Virus record (IMG/VR): IMGVR_UViG_3300023284_001574
Span: 1-37,236 of that record
Origin: a virus
DNA: 37,236 nucleotides
Strand: one strand, 5' to 3'
Both the position numbers and the translations under genes were made by a program. This document shows positions 4,911 to 33,735 of the stretch, piece after piece. The number at the start of each line of letters is the position of its first letter. Position 1 is the first letter of the stretch. The notes under the pieces were generated by a model. It was not told the DNA's origin, did not search any database, and saw nothing but the letters and a program-made list of their open reading frames with translations.

Positions 4911-5106
4911 GCAGACCATCCACCGTCTTCAAAAGACCGAGGCACGGCTCAGCAAAATAGTCTCCACCCAAGCAGAACAACTCTCAAAAGCCCATGACCA
5001 GTATGAAGTTATGGCCAAACAATCTTACCGTATTGAGGGGGAGAGAAATGCCCTCATTGAGATGGTGAATAAATTATTAGAAATCATTACAGGAGCCAAG
5101 AAATGA
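4843..5106 (+). CDS. Coiled-coil protein (up to 87 aa)
   Basis: After a basic start the sequence is a nearly continuous heptad-rich helix (TIHRLQKTEARLSKIVSTQA, then IEGERNALIEMVNKLLEII). In-frame ATGs occur at 4843 and 4864 and neither has a strong SD, so the start is uncertain. It overlaps the preceding gene by 47-68 bases and the following gene by four. It is a likely oligomeric accessory protein of unknown role. Confidence 0.6.
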   Translation: MLRKNSRMGDQESKNPLRVSSTEQTIHRLQKTEARLSKIVSTQAEQLSKAHDQYEVMAKQSYRIEGERNALIEMVNKLLEIITGAKK

Positions 5107-5438
5107 CCAAGAAAGAATATTTTAAATTCCACCAGGCCTGCACCAAACGAATGACAGACATCACCCGCAAAAAGAACCACGACTACACTGGTGGGTCTGA
5201 TGATCCCTTTGCCAACTTTAAAGGAGTGGAGGCTGTAGGTGTTTGTTCCACTGAAGTGGGCTTCTTAACCCGGATGCATGACAAATATGCCCGGGTCAAT
5301 TCATTTGTGAAAAAAGGGGTTCTCCTGGTGGAGGATGAGTCTGTGCAGGACACACTATTGGATTTGGCAAACTACTGCATTTTGATGGCAGGCTTTATTA
5401 AAAGTAAAAGAAACGAAAAGAAACGGAAAAAGCAATGA
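5103..5438 (+). CDS. Nmad1/DUF1599-family protein (111 aa)
   Basis: The order KKNHDYTG, DPFANFKGVEAVGV, then a Glu-rich helix, LTRMHDKYARVNSFV and QDTLLDLANYCILM matches what I know of the DUF1599 domain, also called nucleotide modification associated domain 1. This helical fold is related in style to MazG-type nucleotide-binding proteins and is frequent in phages with altered DNA bases or altered nucleotide pools. A basic tail (KRNEKKRKKQ) follows. The reaction is not established; a role in nucleotide metabolism or DNA modification is inferred. It overlaps both neighbours by 4 bases. Confidence 0.75.
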   Translation: MTKKEYFKFHQACTKRMTDITRKKNHDYTGGSDDPFANFKGVEAVGVCSTEVGFLTRMHDKYARVNSFVKKGVLLVEDESVQDTLLDLANYCILMAGFIKSKRNEKKRKKQ

Positions 5439-15033: not shown

Positions 15034-16248
15034 ATGGCTAATTTTAATTTAACGTCAGCCACTAACCTATTTAAGATTAAATATGGGAAGTTGTCTGACA
15101 ATGTTTACAACTCCGCTAACGTTTTGCTGGCTCGGACTAAGAAATCTTTCGACTTCACCGGTCGTCAAATGTTTATTCCGATCCCTCAAACGTTCAACGG
15201 TGGTGTGGGTTCTGGCTCACTCCCTACCGTGAATACCGCTACCTATGAGGACATGATTCTTATAGCTAAGAAGGTCTATTCACGAGTGGAGATTGACCGA
15301 GAAGCAATCAAAGCGTCTTTGAATGATGAGGGGGCCTTCGTAAGAGGGACCAAGCAAGTTGTTCAAAAGGGTGTCGAATCCTGGATGCGCAATATGTCCC
15401 GAATTCTATTTAACGATGGAACCGGTTCTGTTGCCCGGGGTGATGGATCAACCAACGTTTTAGGAACAGGTACTGGTGGAGACCCGTATGTTGTTGTCCT
15501 AAATGCTGACACCAAAGAAGCCAACATTGAGGAAAAAGACTTTCTCAATTACAATGCTGAGACCACAAATCTTGAGGTGCAGGCTTATGACCCTGCGACC
15601 TTCACCATTGATTTGGTGGGTACTTCAGCAGGCTTGGCAGCTTTGACGGGATCCGGTCCTGTGCCAACCAACGTGTTTCTGCATATGCAGGGTTCAAAGG
15701 ATAATGATCCTACAGGTCTGAAAGGTGTTTTGGATGCCACCAGTGGTACTCAATACACCGTGCCTGTGACACGGAGATGGCAAGCAGGAGCCCAGATTGC
15801 TGCAGGTGGAGCAGGTCTCACGACTGATCTACTTAACCAAGGGATGCTTGAGATTCAACGAAAGTCAGGGAAGGTGCCAAACCTTATTCTGATGTCATTC
15901 GACCAGTACAGAAAACTGTTGAATATCATTGAAGATCAAAAGCAATACATCGTTGAGCCACGGATGCAAGAATTGAAGGGTAAGGTCTCTTTCAGAGGGA
16001 TTGACTTCATGAGTGCAGCTGGTTCAGTGCCAATCCTTCCAGAAAGATTTGTGGAGAATGACAGGGTCTATCTTCTCAATGACAACTGGATTGAGGTTCA
16101 TCACAGACCAGACTTCGGTTGGTTTGAAGATGATGGCACCGTCTTCCTTCGGAAGTCTGATGATGATGCCTATGAGGCCCGATACGGTGGGTACCTTGAA
16201 GCTAGGATAGTACCTAACTTCCATGGAACCATCACAGGTCTTGCATAA
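15034..16248 (+). CDS. Major capsid protein, HK97-type fold (404 aa)
   Basis: Position after the scaffold, length and sequence (TKKSFDFTGRQMFIPIPQT near the start; RVEIDREAIKAS; ESWMRNMSRILFNDGTG; LNDNWIEVHHRPDFGWFEDD near the C-terminus) fit the large group of HK97-fold coat proteins found in marine and soil phages. It would form the icosahedral shell. SD GGAGAG precedes the ATG. A terminator-like hairpin follows, as is common after this highly expressed gene. Confidence 0.88.
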   Translation: MANFNLTSATNLFKIKYGKLSDNVYNSANVLLARTKKSFDFTGRQMFIPIPQTFNGGVGSGSLPTVNTATYEDMILIAKKVYSRVEIDREAIKASLNDEGAFVRGTKQVVQKGVESWMRNMSRILFNDGTGSVARGDGSTNVLGTGTGGDPYVVVLNADTKEANIEEKDFLNYNAETTNLEVQAYDPATFTIDLVGTSAGLAALTGSGPVPTNVFLHMQGSKDNDPTGLKGVLDATSGTQYTVPVTRRWQAGAQIAAGGAGLTTDLLNQGMLEIQRKSGKVPNLILMSFDQYRKLLNIIEDQKQYIVEPRMQELKGKVSFRGIDFMSAAGSVPILPERFVENDRVYLLNDNWIEVHHRPDFGWFEDDGTVFLRKSDDDAYEARYGGYLEARIVPNFHGTITGLA

Positions 16249-28246: not shown

Positions 28247-29400
28247 TGGCAGATGTCAGAGGAGCCTCCTTAGAAGAGGAAAGACAATTACAACGTGGAG
28301 CACAGGCAGGTAAAGCTTCTGCACAAGCTGCGGCCCCTGTGGCGGTTTCTCAGATTGCTGAAAGAGTGAGGCAACAACAACCTTCTGAAGAAGAAACCTT
28401 ACAAGCGGCCCAAAAGGGTACTGAGATTGCCCAACGGGATCCCGCCGCTGCAGAGCAAGCGGTTCAACAAGTGACTCAAGCTGCCACGGCCAAACTCCCT
28501 CCTGAGGAAAAGGCAGAGGTGGAAGAACAGATTGCTGAAGATCAACAAACCGGTCAGGTATCGGATGTCACCCGGGCAATATTAGGGTTTGTCCCCATTG
28601 CTTTGGGATTTGCTGCTGGGGGTGCAGCGGGTGGAGCTATCGGGGCGGCTGCTGGCCGTAGGGCTCTTCAAACTCTTTCAGATGAGGACCAACGGAGAGT
28701 TTTATTGGCTGGGAAAGAAGCCAAAAGGGAACAGGAATTAAAGTTAAAACAAATCAAAGAAAAAAGTGATACCGAGCGTCGGAAGGATGAGATTGCTTTA
28801 AAACAAACCAACTCACTCGCCCTTTTGGATGCAAGAAGTGCTGACCAAAAAGAACTTGAGGCCTTAAAACAAGCAAATAGATTGGTCACTAAAAAGATCA
28901 CCAAAAAGGAACCTAAGTCCTCTCAATTTGAAGCAGCGTTATTTGGTAGGAGATTAGAACAAGCTGAACAGATTTTTGGAGAGTTAGCTAAAACAAGCGA
29001 TGCCACTGCGATTGATTTTGCAATAGCTAGGAAATTACCTGAGTTTATAAAACCTGAAAATATTAAGAGTCAGGAACAGGCAGAGAGAAACTTTGTCAAT
29101 GCTGTCCTAAGACGTGAATCTGGGGCTGCTATTGCTCCTTCTGAGTTTGAATCAGCCCGTCTTCAATACTTTCCCCAGGTAGGTGATGGTCCCCAAGTCT
29201 TAGCTCAAAAGAGGGCTAACCGGGCTGTGGCTTTTAATGCTTTAAAGGCAGAAGCAGGGGAGGCTTTTGGACAAGTGGAGGGTGGTGGTCCCCCGCCTAC
29301 ACAAATTGACCCCTTGGCAGAACAATTTGCTAAGACACACAAAATTCCAGTGGACCAGGCAGACCGCATTTTAAAAGAACGGAGGGCCGCAGGTGGCTAA
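28246..29400 (+). CDS. Internal virion (ejection) protein (384 aa)
   Basis: An Ala/Gln/Glu-rich helical N-terminus, a glycine-zipper hydrophobic segment (LGFAAGGAAGGAIGAAAG, about residues 118-135) and a charged helix precede a folded C-terminal part. That part contains NAVLRRESGAAIAPSEFESA, RLQYFPQVGDGPQVLAQKR and RANRAVAFNAL. I associate this RRESGAAI ... YFP..GD pattern with phage DNA-transfer proteins. The hydrophobic segment could insert in the host membrane during ejection. Overlaps the previous stop. Confidence 0.75.
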   Translation: MADVRGASLEEERQLQRGAQAGKASAQAAAPVAVSQIAERVRQQQPSEEETLQAAQKGTEIAQRDPAAAEQAVQQVTQAATAKLPPEEKAEVEEQIAEDQQTGQVSDVTRAILGFVPIALGFAAGGAAGGAIGAAAGRRALQTLSDEDQRRVLLAGKEAKREQELKLKQIKEKSDTERRKDEIALKQTNSLALLDARSADQKELEALKQANRLVTKKITKKEPKSSQFEAALFGRRLEQAEQIFGELAKTSDATAIDFAIARKLPEFIKPENIKSQEQAERNFVNAVLRRESGAAIAPSEFESARLQYFPQVGDGPQVLAQKRANRAVAFNALKAEAGEAFGQVEGGGPPPTQIDPLAEQFAKTHKIPVDQADRILKERRAAGG

Positions 29401-31645
29401 GCAACAAGACCTACTCTCAGCCCCGTCAGAAGATGAATTGAAAAGATCTGATGAGGCATTATTAGCAGCCCCCACTCCTCAAGAATTATCTTCAACAGGA
29501 GAGGCGAGTTTTGGGGATGTGGCCGGTGCAGCGGTGCGCGGTATAGGCCGTGGTGTACTTTTTGGTCAAGCTGAGACTGTTGCTCAATTAGCGGGTGAAC
29601 GTATTGAGGGAATAGGTCGGTTAGGTGGGCAAGCTGCTCTTGCTGCTGGTGTGGATCCCGAGACTCTATCACAAGCCAACATTCCATTTGCTTCTGACGT
29701 TGGATTAGAGGCCCAAGGTTTTGACATCGGGCAACAACCCTTTGGAACACAAGTGGCTGGAGGGATTGCAGCTCAAACTGCACTGGATGAAGAGATTGCC
29801 CCCGTTGCCAGTCTTGGTGGGGAAATTGTAGGTAACCTGATTACCGGGGGAGGTTTAGCCGCCGCTGGAAAGGCCGCAATCCGTTCCATCATAGGACAGG
29901 TGGCTCCAGGTCTATTGGCTAAGGCTGAAGTGATTGAAAGAGCAGGCCGAATAGGGTTTAAGGGTGCCAAAAGACTTAATTTAGGAGTAAAGGTGGCATC
30001 AAATGCTGCAGAAGCAGCTGCCCTGACAGCGCTTGAAGCAGGAACGTCAAGCAATGATGTGGCAGGGTCTGCTAAGTTAGCCACAGCCTTTACCGTGGCC
30101 CCAGCCGCTGTGAAAGGACTATTTAAAGCTGGTGCAAAACTAGGCAAGGGTGCCTTTGCTGCAGCGTTTGGTATTAAGGGTCCCGCAGCTAAAAAACTCA
30201 TGGACCGGGCTCAGGAGATACGTAAACTCCCTGATTTTGATGATGTGGTTGAACAGACTGAAAAAGCTGTGGATGAACTCCGTGTCAATGCTGCTAAAAC
30301 TCAAGAAGAAGTAGGGGGGGAATTACTTAATGCTCTGACAGGTATAAAACAACGGGCTGTAGATCTCTCTGCTGAAGCCTTTGGAATACTTGATGAGTCC
30401 ACCAAAAGATTTTCTAAAGTTCAGCTGCTGAGAACTCTCCAAAAAGCTGGTGATGCTGCTCCTGTAGGTACAGCGGGCCGAGGCATGAAGGTCCGAATGA
30501 AACAATTCATCAATGATGTTGATGAGTTTGTACCTGCCGATAAAGACGGGGCTTTAACGGGATCCCAAGTCAAAAAAATCATCCAAGACCTTGATTCAGA
30601 AATTGGAGAAATCAACGCTAAGGCAGGACAGATCTTAACTCCTACAGAAAGGCTCATGACCCAAGCCCGTCGTGCTGTGGATCAGACTCTTAAAAAGAAT
30701 GTCCCTGAATACGCCCAAGCCATGGAAGAGGTGGCCGCTTTAACAACCTTTATTAGTACCGCGTCAAAAAAGTTAGGGGATGTTGATAAAGCAATATCAG
30801 CTTCTCTTAGGGTGGGTGCTCCAGTTGAAAAAGAAGCCACCAAACTGGTTAAGGAATTAGCCAAGCGCAGTAATGTGGACATAGCCCGCTTAAAGACGGC
30901 TCAAGAGACTGCAAACCTTTTTAAATCATGGAACACCTCTAATTTTGATAGAAAGGTGAGGGCTCTTACTCGAGGTCTAAACCCAAATGACAGGGCTCAG
31001 TTAAAAGCCATAGCAAGTGTGTCTGATGATGAGTTTGTCAGAGCAGTGGAAAATCTTCAGATCTCAAATGAGTTTGAGAAAGAATTTTTAAGAGGCTCAA
31101 GGAATGTGAACCTCTGGTCCTTCTTGGGGTTTGGTTTAAGCCAAGGAAATCCCATTGCCCTAGCCGCAGGAGCAGCCTCGGGAGGTTTGATTGATAAGTT
31201 TGGACCCAAGATGGCAAAAAGTGTTTTATTGGCTGTTGGGGAGATTAAGGGTGCCATCACCATTCCTAAAATTAGGAAGATGAACCTCCCTGGTAATGTG
31301 ACAGATTTCCTAGAGGATCAATTCAGAAGAACCATAGTTTTTGCCAACACCGGTAATGATGTCACCATTGATGATGACGCTAAGCAAGGAGTGATGTTAG
31401 ACATTGAGGGATCAAAAGTGCTGACACCGTTGCAAAAAGCAACTATGATCACCCAAATCCAAAGAGATGGGGAGGTTGATGCTAGTCTCTACAAAAAACT
31501 TGTTTCTGGATCTGATAAACCAGACTTTCCACAGCCTAATCTCAGTTTTATCAAGAAGGCTCCAACACGTTCAGCTCCAAACCTGGAAAAGGTCGCAGCT
31601 GGTGTCAGGCCTCTCATCAAAGACCGCAAACCCCCCGACTACTAA
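29393..31645 (+). CDS. Large internal virion (ejection) protein (750 aa)
   Basis: A GTG start with GGAGGG upstream overlaps the preceding gene by 8 bases. The N-terminal 250 residues are Gly/Ala-rich with several amphipathic or hydrophobic helices (GEIVGNLITGGGLAAAGKAA). Long charged helices follow, and a second hydrophobic region appears near residues 580-600 (NPIALAAGAASGGLIDKFG). The composition and position match the large P22 gp16/gp20-type or T7 gp16-like ejection proteins. No lytic transglycosylase motif is evident. Confidence 0.75.
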   Translation: MAKQQDLLSAPSEDELKRSDEALLAAPTPQELSSTGEASFGDVAGAAVRGIGRGVLFGQAETVAQLAGERIEGIGRLGGQAALAAGVDPETLSQANIPFASDVGLEAQGFDIGQQPFGTQVAGGIAAQTALDEEIAPVASLGGEIVGNLITGGGLAAAGKAAIRSIIGQVAPGLLAKAEVIERAGRIGFKGAKRLNLGVKVASNAAEAAALTALEAGTSSNDVAGSAKLATAFTVAPAAVKGLFKAGAKLGKGAFAAAFGIKGPAAKKLMDRAQEIRKLPDFDDVVEQTEKAVDELRVNAAKTQEEVGGELLNALTGIKQRAVDLSAEAFGILDESTKRFSKVQLLRTLQKAGDAAPVGTAGRGMKVRMKQFINDVDEFVPADKDGALTGSQVKKIIQDLDSEIGEINAKAGQILTPTERLMTQARRAVDQTLKKNVPEYAQAMEEVAALTTFISTASKKLGDVDKAISASLRVGAPVEKEATKLVKELAKRSNVDIARLKTAQETANLFKSWNTSNFDRKVRALTRGLNPNDRAQLKAIASVSDDEFVRAVENLQISNEFEKEFLRGSRNVNLWSFLGFGLSQGNPIALAAGAASGGLIDKFGPKMAKSVLLAVGEIKGAITIPKIRKMNLPGNVTDFLEDQFRRTIVFANTGNDVTIDDDAKQGVMLDIEGSKVLTPLQKATMITQIQRDGEVDASLYKKLVSGSDKPDFPQPNLSFIKKAPTRSAPNLEKVAAGVRPLIKDRKPPDY

Positions 31646-31646
31646 A

Positions 31647-32123
31647 ATGGTCCCGACATGTATTACTGTGCACTGCCTGCTGACTCCTAATGGCAAGCCC
31701 GTGGACCCCATGGTTGTACATGAGTGGCATAAGAGCAGGGGGTGGGATCAAGCAGGGTATCATTTTATTATCCAGCCCAGTGGGAGGGTGGAAGAAGGAT
31801 TCCCCTTAAGAAAAATTAACCAAGAGGGTGCACACGTCAAAAAGGCCAACACTCATCTGGGTGGGCTCAACACGGGCATAGCCTTGGCTGGGACCGATAA
31901 ATATACTCGGTTACAATTAGCCGCACTTCATGAATTAACCCACAAGATATTAAGGCGTTATAGTTTGGAGATTCACCAGGTCTATTGCCACAGTGAGTTC
32001 CCCTCTGCCCGCAAGCAGAAGAAAAGCTGTCCTAATATTAGGCCCGTTGATTTGGTGGTGTGGTTAGATGACGCAAGTTGTTCAAGTATGGAGAAATATG
32101 TTTTAACGGAAAAGAATGTATAA
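31647..32123 (+). CDS. N-acetylmuramoyl-L-alanine amidase, T7-lysozyme type (158 aa)
   Basis: The endolysin shares T7 lysozyme landmarks: VHC (His9, zinc ligand), RGWDQAGYHFIIQPSG with Tyr38 in the position of the T7 catalytic Tyr46, a GAH ... NTGIALAG core, YCHSEF (His115) and SCPN (Cys128) as the remaining zinc ligands. It cleaves the amide bond between MurNAc and L-Ala in peptidoglycan. There is no signal peptide, so it needs the holin downstream. The ATG at 31647 lies one base after the preceding stop; an upstream in-frame start at 31467 would overlap that gene by 180 bases and is rejected. Confidence 0.92.
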   Translation: MVPTCITVHCLLTPNGKPVDPMVVHEWHKSRGWDQAGYHFIIQPSGRVEEGFPLRKINQEGAHVKKANTHLGGLNTGIALAGTDKYTRLQLAALHELTHKILRRYSLEIHQVYCHSEFPSARKQKKSCPNIRPVDLVVWLDDASCSSMEKYVLTEKNV

Positions 32124-32124
32124 T
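32119..32124 (+). promoter_or_regulatory. Consensus -10 element before the holin leader
   Basis: A perfect TATAAT overlaps the amidase stop codon. No good -35 lies 16-18 bases upstream. If used, transcription would start at about 32131, the base just before the structured RNA at 32133-32180. This would give the holin and downstream lysis genes a second, local promoter. Confidence 0.4.
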
Positions 32125-32132
32125 ACGCTTCA

Positions 32133-32180
32133 GGCGACAACCATAGGGAAATGGGCGAGGCAAGGATGCTTCTTGTCGCC
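32133..32180 (+). ncRNA. Three-way-junction RNA element in the holin leader
   Basis: GGCGACAA (32133-32140) pairs perfectly with TTGTCGCC (32173-32180). Between them lie two closed hairpins: CCAT-AGGGAA-ATGG (32141-32154) and GAGGCA-AGGA-TGCTTC (32157-32172, one G-T pair). Only two unpaired bases remain at the junction, so the three helices could stack compactly. The holin SD (AAAGGAG) follows 8 bases later. It might regulate holin translation, terminate the amidase message, or be a separate small RNA. No known riboswitch or ribozyme class was recognised. Confidence 0.5.
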
Positions 32181-32201
32181 CTAATTTAAAGGAGAGACAC
32201 C

Positions 32202-32387
32202 ATGTTAGAAAAAACAGTATTGAAATCCAAAACGTTTTATCTTGGCCTAGTCACCGCGTTAGCACCATTACTCCCCGGGGTGGGTGCATGGGTGGCGGAC
32301 AACGTCGCAACAGTGGGGTTAGTTTGGGGTGGGCTGACCGTCCTCTTAAGACTAGTCACCAAAGATAAAGTTACATTAGTGCCATAA
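32202..32387 (+). CDS. Holin (61 aa)
   Basis: There are two hydrophobic segments, about residues 11-30 (FYLGLVTALAPLLPGVGAWV) and 34-51 (VATVGLVWGGLTVLLRLV), with a basic start (KSKT) and a short charged tail (TKDKVTLV). This size and plan, next to the amidase, fits a small two-span phage holin that opens the inner membrane at a set time. SD AAAGGAGAG is strong. Confidence 0.8.
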   Translation: MLEKTVLKSKTFYLGLVTALAPLLPGVGAWVADNVATVGLVWGGLTVLLRLVTKDKVTLVP

Positions 32388-32391
32388 TTTG

Positions 32392-32410
32392 GGGGGGCCA
32401 AGTGCCCCCT
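32392..32410 (+). terminator. G/C-rich hairpin after the holin gene
   Basis: GGGGGGC (32392-32398) pairs with GCCCCCT (32404-32410; one G-T pair) around a five-base loop. There is no U-tract; the SD of the next gene (AAGGAG) follows within 10 bases. It is probably an attenuating or stabilising element. Confidence 0.5.
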
Positions 32411-32425
32411 ATCCAAGGAGTTTAA

Positions 32426-32623
32426 ATGGGTATCGTTAATGGGGTTCTCGCTTTACTTAATAAAGTCTTATCCTTCTTCCATCCTAAGACTGAAGCTGAA
32501 CGGGCAGTGGATAAAGACAAAAGGGAAGTCAGAGACCGTAAGAAAAAGGCTTTAGCAAGAGCCAAGGCCGTGGCCAAAGCAAAGAGGGGAGACACCAGGG
32601 ATGCTGAAAAATATCTTAATTAG
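32426..32623 (+). CDS. Small amphipathic/basic protein in the lysis cassette (65 aa)
   Basis: The N-terminal about 18 residues are hydrophobic (GIVNGVLALLNKVLSFF), followed by a long Lys/Arg/Glu helix (RAVDKDKREVRDRKKKALAR). It precedes and overlaps a lipoprotein gene, as an inner-membrane spanin precedes Rz1, but the hydrophobic part is short for a membrane span. The spanin call is only a possibility. SD AAGGAG is good. Confidence 0.6.
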   Translation: MGIVNGVLALLNKVLSFFHPKTEAERAVDKDKREVRDRKKKALARAKAVAKAKRGDTRDAEKYLN

Positions 32624-32861
32624 AACCGTGCTAATCAGTCTTCTGACAGTGAGTTCCTGTGGGTCCACAAATAAACTTTATAATGTCGATCCAGATAAAG
32701 GGGGCTTAACCCGATTGGATGATGACGTTATTCGTTTTGAGAATATCCGTTGCTTACCGGATCCCGTTGATCCTGATAAGGTTGTCTGCCCATACGCTGC
32801 TTTAACGTGGGAAAGTTGGAACATCGTGCAGGCCAAACTGGATGCCTGTGAAGAAGAGTAG
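32601..32861 (+). CDS. Small lipoprotein, possible o-spanin (86 aa)
   Basis: The signal sequence ILIRTVLISLLTVSSC ends in a lipobox-like VSSC (Cys20). The mature part has two more Cys (RCLPD, VVCPY) and an acidic end. It starts within the previous gene in another frame, which is reminiscent of Rz/Rz1 arrangements. Outer-membrane disruption during lysis is inferred from location, not from sequence similarity. Confidence 0.65.
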   Translation: MLKNILIRTVLISLLTVSSCGSTNKLYNVDPDKGGLTRLDDDVIRFENIRCLPDPVDPDKVVCPYAALTWESWNIVQAKLDACEEE

Positions 32862-32873
32862 TATACTTTTCCT

Positions 32874-33065
32874 ATGGGCGATGAAGAGCACAACGGATGG
32901 AATGAGTGGAAGAACAAAGTTCTCTCTGACCTAAAATATCTCAGAGCCGATATGAAAGAGATGAGAGGCGACATCACTACTCTCAAAGTTAAATCAGGGA
33001 TGTGGGGTGTTGCTGGAGCCTCAATTGCTGTAGCCGCTATGACTCTGATGAAGAAACTTTTTTAA
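32874..33065 (+). CDS. XhlA-like coiled-coil protein with C-terminal anchor (63 aa)
   Basis: A charged helix with heptads (DLKYLRADMKEMRGDITTLK) precedes a C-terminal transmembrane segment (MWGVAGASIAVAAMTLM) and a basic end (KKLF). This is the layout of XhlA-family lysis-associated proteins. It closes the rightward late block; its 3' end overlaps the convergent HNH gene by 29 bases. Confidence 0.65.
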   Translation: MGDEEHNGWNEWKNKVLSDLKYLRADMKEMRGDITTLKVKSGMWGVAGASIAVAAMTLMKKLF

Positions 33066-33315
33066 CATGATAGAACCATTTCCCCATCAATTTCTCCCAC
33101 CCATATTTTCTCATGAACCATTCAGCCAAAGGGTATTTGTCAGTGAAGGTAGTGGCCCCGATATAGTGCCATTCTACATGGTGGGACCTGCACAAGGGCA
33201 TGAGATTCCACTCTGCCTCTAATGGCCCCCCAGCTCCACGGGTTTTGATATGATGCAAATCCACCTCAGAATGACGGCAGACTATGCACCTGCTTTTGTC
33301 TTTGTTTTGTGACAT
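33037..33315 (-). CDS. HNH endonuclease-type protein (92 aa)
   Basis: CIVC (about residues 10-13), VDLHHIKTRGAGG, an EAEWNLMPLCRSHHVEWH segment and a C-terminal aromatic region form an HNH fold with a structural zinc. H-H-I supplies the first His and N-L the Asn. This compact version is common in phages as a free-standing nuclease. It lies last in its leftward operon and starts inside the upstream HNH gene. Targets unknown; help with recombination, packaging or host DNA attack are all possible. Confidence 0.8.
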   Translation of the reverse strand: MSQNKDKSRCIVCRHSEVDLHHIKTRGAGGPLEAEWNLMPLCRSHHVEWHYIGATTFTDKYPLAEWFMRKYGWEKLMGKWFYHVKKVSSSES

Positions 33316-33575
33316 GGCTTACAAAGGACCTGCATTTCCCCATAAAAAAGGTTTTTAATATAATCATTCCAATCATCTGACACACTTCTAATGGGCACGA
33401 TGTGATCCACCTGGATTTCATGTTGCTTAAAGAAGCCTGTGCACCCATTACAAAGATACACCCCCCTCTCCACCCGAGCATTCTTAACCACGTCATATCT
33501 CATGGGAGACCGCAGCCAAACTTTCCTCAGAGCATCAACTAAGCGGGTCTTTAACTTGAATGTCTTTTTTTTCAT
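33282..33575 (-). CDS. Second HNH endonuclease-type protein (97 aa)
   Basis: A basic N-terminus (MKKKTFKLKTRLVDALRKVW) precedes YLCNGC, VDHIVPI and VLCKPCHKTKT, a classic zinc-supported HNH domain (C-x2-C, D-H-I, C-x2-C-H). It differs in sequence from the neighbouring HNH protein, so the pair is not a recent duplication. No SD is visible before the ATG at 33575; it overlaps the upstream lipoprotein gene by 41 bases and may be reached by coupling. Confidence 0.75.
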   Translation of the reverse strand: MKKKTFKLKTRLVDALRKVWLRSPMRYDVVKNARVERGVYLCNGCTGFFKQHEIQVDHIVPIRSVSDDWNDYIKNLFYGEMQVLCKPCHKTKTKAGA

Positions 33576-33735
33576 TCGCAATTGCAAAACAGATTTTAGA
33601 GTCAGTGAGTAATCCCCCTACACTATAAAACGGACAGTTATTCTCATAATTCCTATGTGTGGCGCAGTTAACCCCTGCCATGGACAAAAGTATACTCATC
33701 CATAGCCTGAATAGCGTCTTCCATTTCCTGTTCAT
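33535..33735 (-). CDS. Probable lipoprotein or exported small protein (66 aa)
   Basis: A basic start (MNRKWKTLFR) and a hydrophobic stretch (LWMSILLSMAGVNC) end in a Cys at residue 24 that could be lipidated, although GVNC is not an ideal lipobox. The mature part contains NCPFYSVGGLLTDSKICF with two Cys that could pair. It is embedded between a zinc-ribbon gene and an HNH gene with overlaps on both sides. Confidence 0.55.
   Translation of the reverse strand: MNRKWKTLFRLWMSILLSMAGVNCATHRNYENNCPFYSVGGLLTDSKICFAIANEKKDIQVKDPLS

Follow-up and report, generated by a model that had tools for sequence, protein, structure and literature searches.

Gene context of the lysis cassette

The DNA analyzed here, called the window below, is an entire IMG/VR virus record of 37,236 bases and derives from a phage with a P22/SU10-like portal and a major head protein. 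Its lysis genes and the untranslated leader between the first two of them are as follows.

31647-32123, + strand: endolysin of 158 aa, an Amidase_2/T7-lysozyme-like N-acetylmuramoyl-L-alanine amidase (PF01510, 3e-10; phrog_822 amidase, 5e-26)
32124-32201, + strand: untranslated leader of 78 nt, from the amidase stop to the holin start
32202-32387, + strand: holin-like protein of 61 aa with two hydrophobic segments, encoded next after the endolysin; the cassette is syntenic with that of contig L292
32426-32623, + strand: small charged/amphipathic protein of the lysis cassette
32601-32861, + strand: lipoprotein, candidate for a spanin-like outer subunit (weak match to phrog_3198 Rz-like spanin, E 0.048; homologous to L292:3358-3627, E 4e-4)
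32874-33065, + strand: membrane protein of 63 aa, the last of the cassette (weak match in the relative L190, E 5e-4)

The ATG at 31647 was taken as the amidase start within the mechanical ORF 31467-32123. The 61-aa protein matched none of the families in a database search and is a probable holin by its size, hydropathy and place. Because intergenic sequence makes up only 2.8% of the gene block at 3979-33065, a 78-nt leader is unusual in this phage; it is one of seven gaps of at least 40 nt in that block. Elsewhere in the genome, an N6/N4 DNA methyltransferase gene (PF01555, 7643-8764), to which some relatives have a longer or split homologue, lies directly ahead of the terminase gene, a DUF1599 ORF (nucleotide modification associated domain 1, E 2e-5) is found in the early region at 5103-5438, and an HNH endonuclease-like ORF (PF01844, E 4e-6) on the minus strand at 33282-33587 adjoins the end of the late operon.

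Single-sequence scans with the holin, the amidase and the 750-aa neighbour gave no relatives. Relatives of the major head protein are encoded at 62 loci, and the genomes concerned are syntenic with the window up to the gene at 29393-31645. Their lysis genes are replaced by other endolysins, with holin starts mostly overlapping or close, so that they hold no homologous leader; the leader DNA gave only 19-nt chance matches among them. Since synteny ends at 29393-31645 and the lysis genes are swapped, the leader is part of the lysis module and not of the phage backbone. The cassette at 31647-33065 is a swapped module in which relatives with 50-68% identical head proteins differ: they carry lytic-transglycosylase-like, NlpC/P60-like or phage-lysozyme-like genes in the same place, and the amidase cassette recurs in the unrelated L292. 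The head protein (15034-16248) defines a clade of 62 IMG/VR loci (L122-L183) with only distant relatives among isolates (Arthrobacter phages, 22% identity), seemingly a sizeable group without cultured members. Terminase, capsid and portal relatives among isolates were likewise too distant for the host to be inferred.

Predicted fold of the leader

The earlier note on this DNA, made from the sequence alone, had described a compact three-way-junction RNA in the holin leader, with an 8-bp outer stem enclosing two hairpins, almost no unpaired bases and the holin Shine-Dalgarno (SD) sequence following. RNA folding reproduced this arrangement, with the elements listed here.

32133-32140, + strand: 5' arm of the outer stem, predicted by RNA folding and not conserved in L292
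32141-32154, + strand: hairpin 1, CCAU-[AGGGAA]-AUGG, an ANGGAN hexaloop on a 4-bp stem (GGA 32147-32149 unpaired with p 0.95-0.99)
32157-32172, + strand: hairpin 2, GAGGC-[AAGGAU]-GCUUC, an ANGGAN hexaloop on a 5-bp stem (GGA 32164-32166 unpaired with p 0.96-0.97; CAAGGAU conserved in L292)
32173-32180, + strand: 3' arm of the outer stem, predicted by RNA folding
32181-32195, + strand: SD region CTAATTTAAAGGAGA, which contains the SD AAGGAG at 32189-32194, whose own GGA at 32191 is the third of the leader; L292 conserves the region in the form CTAATTTTAAGGAGA

The two arms of the outer stem (GGCGACAA/UUGUCGCC) pair as had been described, both hairpins form with 2 nt between them, and the holin ATG follows the SD at 32202. 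The 48-nt core contains only these 2 linker bases and folds to -20.2 kcal/mol; the fold is both the RNAfold minimum free energy structure and the centroid, and most of its pairs have a probability of at least 0.9. The core alone scored z -4.0, but its borders were picked after the fact, and the whole leader scored only -1.4 to -1.6. In a scan of all positions with lengths of 38-60, one flush three-way junction at or below -20.2 kcal/mol was found on the real + strand vs a mean of ∼1.1 per shuffled strand (12 block-shuffled 37-kb genomes gave 0-3 each). The bare three-way junction is thus unremarkable in stability and no more than expected by chance.

ANGGAN loops and a homologous leader in a second phage

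The content of the loops had been overlooked in the earlier note. Both are exact ANGGAN hexaloops (AGGGAA and AAGGAU) on stems of 4-5 bp, and ANGGAN recurs in the SD AAGGAG, whose GGA is predicted to be partly unpaired (p 0.22-0.66). CsrA, RsmA and RsmE recognize ANGGAN when a short hairpin displays it in its hexaloop. The GGA of most SELEX ligands sits in a loop of six nucleotides, ANGGAN is what RsmE contacts, and a dimer bridges two sites 10-63 nt apart; in glgC, a dimer anchored at an upstream hairpin extends to the SD (PMC7652899). The GGA-to-GGA distances of 17, 27 and 44 nt in the window leader (25 and 23 nt in L292) lie within this bridgeable range. A point against the assignment to CsrA is the stability of hairpin 2, which exceeds that of most SELEX ligands. 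The statement that the RNA belongs to no known class holds for Rfam, where the leader had no match at the curated threshold or at a relaxed E-value, and fails for the loops, which match the known ANGGAN binding hairpin of CsrA/RsmA.

The rarity of the loop pair was assessed with a definition of the motif taken from the literature, in a test framed after the loops were seen. Five ANGGAN hexaloop hairpins with a stem of at least 4 bp occur on the 37-kb + strand; two of them are the arms of the junction, and they form the only pair within 60 nt, with 0.075 pairs expected per shuffled genome. Shuffling of the leader produced two such hairpins in 2 of 20,000 sequences under the strict rule and in 35 of 20,000 under the relaxed rule. 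Two adjacent ANGGAN-hexaloop hairpins are more than chance. A scan for a pair of ANGGA hairpins together with an SD and an ORF, covering 5,157,698 strand-bases of phage loci that had been fetched for other reasons, gave three matches, namely the window leader (counted through L001), the L292 leader and L100. The L100 match falls within overlapping reading frames of a G+C-rich contig and was judged a chance match. As a positive control, the leader of a known target, E. coli glgC, yielded an ACGGAU hairpin in the same scan.

The contig L292 was found through a profile of the amidase and three isolate amidases; it was fetched by amidase homology alone and not chosen for ANGGAN. Its amidase is 39-40% identical to that of the window and is followed by a 70-nt gap, a 67-aa holin-like protein, a small protein, a lipoprotein and a TM protein, the same order as in the window. 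The lipoproteins are homologous (E 4e-4). The holin-like proteins are only 28% identical, and BLASTP gave no match. When 30 window proteins were compared with the 36-kb L292 contig, the amidase region alone matched; two otherwise different phages therefore share a lysis module.

The L292 leader reads GCC-[ACGGAA]-GGC and GGGAAC-[AAGGAU]AC-GUUCCC, followed by the SD AAGGAG, and two ANGGA hairpins arose in 9 of 20,000 of its shuffles (relaxed rule). Its hairpin 1 is predicted with p of only 0.39, in competition with an alternative hairpin, and the loop of its hairpin 2 has 8 nt. The stems are rewritten between the two leaders and the loops keep A-N-GGA. Compensatory changes, which the earlier note had proposed to seek in homologues, are present in the two hairpins: in a reading of the two sequences, five of eight comparable stem pairs (three in hairpin 1 and five in hairpin 2) are changed on both sides, one is changed on one side and two are unchanged. 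They are not demonstrable in the outer stem: nothing in the L292 sequence corresponds to it, several weak alternative pairings are in competition there (p ∼0.1), and we do not claim its conservation. A local alignment of the full leaders was matched by 1 of 2000 shuffles; the alignment without the SD end was not significant, nor was the CAAGGAT match outside the SD region by itself. Since the loops are kept and the outer stem is without a counterpart in L292, what evolution has kept is the pair of GGA hairpins with the SD, and in primary sequence CAAGGAT and CTAATTTnAAGGAGA. The structured holin leader is supported and likely to be functional, and the compact junction as a conserved feature is not, its outer stem being absent or uncertain in the sole homologue.

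The L292 leader was the only homologue found, so that two leaders in all were compared. The pattern AAGGATN{4,28}CTAATTTNAAGGAG occurred in five stretches of viral contigs, and none of those outside the L292 contig is a comparable holin leader. L317, whose amidase is 51% identical to that of L292, was rejected as a further homologue, as its gene order differs and it has no leader.

Proposed control of holin translation by CsrA/RsmA

From the sequence, the predicted structure, the rarity of the motif, its conservation in a second phage and the predicted exposure of the loop GGAs, we propose that the 78-nt leader is a translational control element of the CsrA/RsmA type for the probable holin gene; we put the probability of this reading at roughly 60%. 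The ligand would be a host protein, since csrA was not found in the phage, in L292 or in 46 relatives, with 48 related or compared records covered in all; some phages do carry csrA, such as Burkholderia phage JC1 (PMC9144972). In the proposed mechanism, late mRNA would run through the amidase gene into the leader, with no need for a promoter of its own. The two ANGGAN loops would bind both RNA-binding faces of the host CsrA/RsmA dimer, and a dimer tethered on one hairpin, most likely hairpin 2, would bridge to the GGA of the SD and block the ribosome, so that amidase would accumulate while the putative holin is held back. The outer stem of the window leader may hold both hairpins in a rigid open form. 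The holin would be released once free CsrA falls, whether titrated by the rising late mRNA, with three sites on each transcript, or lowered by host Csr sRNAs or host physiology. The fuller version, in which the shared lysis-module leader makes holin translation depend on host CsrA/RsmA, titration sets the lysis time and the junction presents both loops to one dimer, is more tentative, and we give it slightly less than an even chance.

One alternative is a structural spacer. The hairpins could stop upstream sequence from pairing with the ribosome-binding site of the holin gene and make holin translation independent of that of amidase, with the loop content incidental; the SD does lie outside the fold, and the gap is 78 nt here vs holin starts that overlap or lie near the endolysin stop in most of the major-head-protein relatives. 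This explanation does not account for the presence of ANGGA in all four hairpin loops of the two phages, and we regard it as unlikely. Quite unlikely, too, is ribosome standby or an SD decoy, in which base pairing of the purine loops to the 16S rRNA anti-SD would retain or slow 30S subunits beside the real SD with no protein involved. AAGGAU and AGGGAA resemble SD sequences, and the structure stops shortly before the SD, with an open 3' part, but ACGGAA is a poor partner for the anti-SD, the four loops share the invariant pattern A-N-GGA-N while their second base varies (G, A, C, A), and CsrA better fits the loop size and the position in short hairpins.

A chance fold with no function would agree with the expected occurrence of such a junction about once per shuffled strand and with the z of about -1.5 for the full leader; that the loop pair is rare, and that an unrelated phage has it again in its homologous leader, makes this decidedly improbable. 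The earlier note had also suggested that a perfect TATAAT at 32119-32124 would start a transcript at the outer stem, with a structured leader or a small RNA as the outcome. The box is present, 9 nt upstream of the stem, and a pair of GGA loops would suit a CsrA sponge, but as a promoter it is weak: it overlaps the amidase stop codon, has no extended -10 and no TTGACA-like hexamer 16-18 nt upstream (the three possible -35 hexamers match 1 of 6 bases), and is not listed by a consensus scan, which gave no terminator-like site nearby or downstream. With 10 occurrences on the + strand and 9.0 expected, TATAAT is no commoner than by chance, and no perfect TATAAT stands at that place in L292. A small RNA or separate holin transcript from its own promoter is therefore unsupported, and extremely improbable.

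The control by CsrA/RsmA proposed here resembles that of known systems. In colicin operons, the SD of the lysis gene cel is the point at which CsrA exerts repression and sets the time of release, and the long mRNA of colicin E2/E7 cel helps titrate CsrA, according to the passages of two reports drawn on here (PMC5916893, PMC7055308). As described in those passages, the cel leader shares with the phage leader a lysis gene late in its operon and GGA sites that include the SD; in both, a host RNA-binding protein would delay the lysis protein and be titrated by the mRNA, which is proven for cel and only predicted here. Unlike the phage holin gene, cel belongs to a plasmid toxin operon, and those same passages describe no three-way junction for it. 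In the E. coli glgC leader, too, the SD is a CsrA site and is preceded at a short distance by a hairpin with an ANGGA loop; this leader differs in having four sites, of which the scan found one hairpin, and in serving a bacterial metabolic gene, and a junction that encloses two site hairpins is present in the phage leader only. ANGGA hairpins are also arrayed in the sponge RNAs CsrB and RsmX-Y-Z, which are separate many-site sRNAs with a promoter and a terminator, whereas here two hairpins stand in an mRNA leader.

The usual explanations of holin timing are holin accumulation, antiholins and dual starts, and the Csr system reads carbon and growth state. In the open-access papers that were searched, we found no description of a phage whose holin mRNA is the target of a host RNA-binding protein. 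If the proposal is true, such a protein would tie lysis to host metabolism, and the late mRNA would have a built-in threshold, because each transcript would soak up its own repressor. The same logic works for a plasmid lysis gene in the case of colicin cel, and the phage may let a host protein time the burst of the cell.
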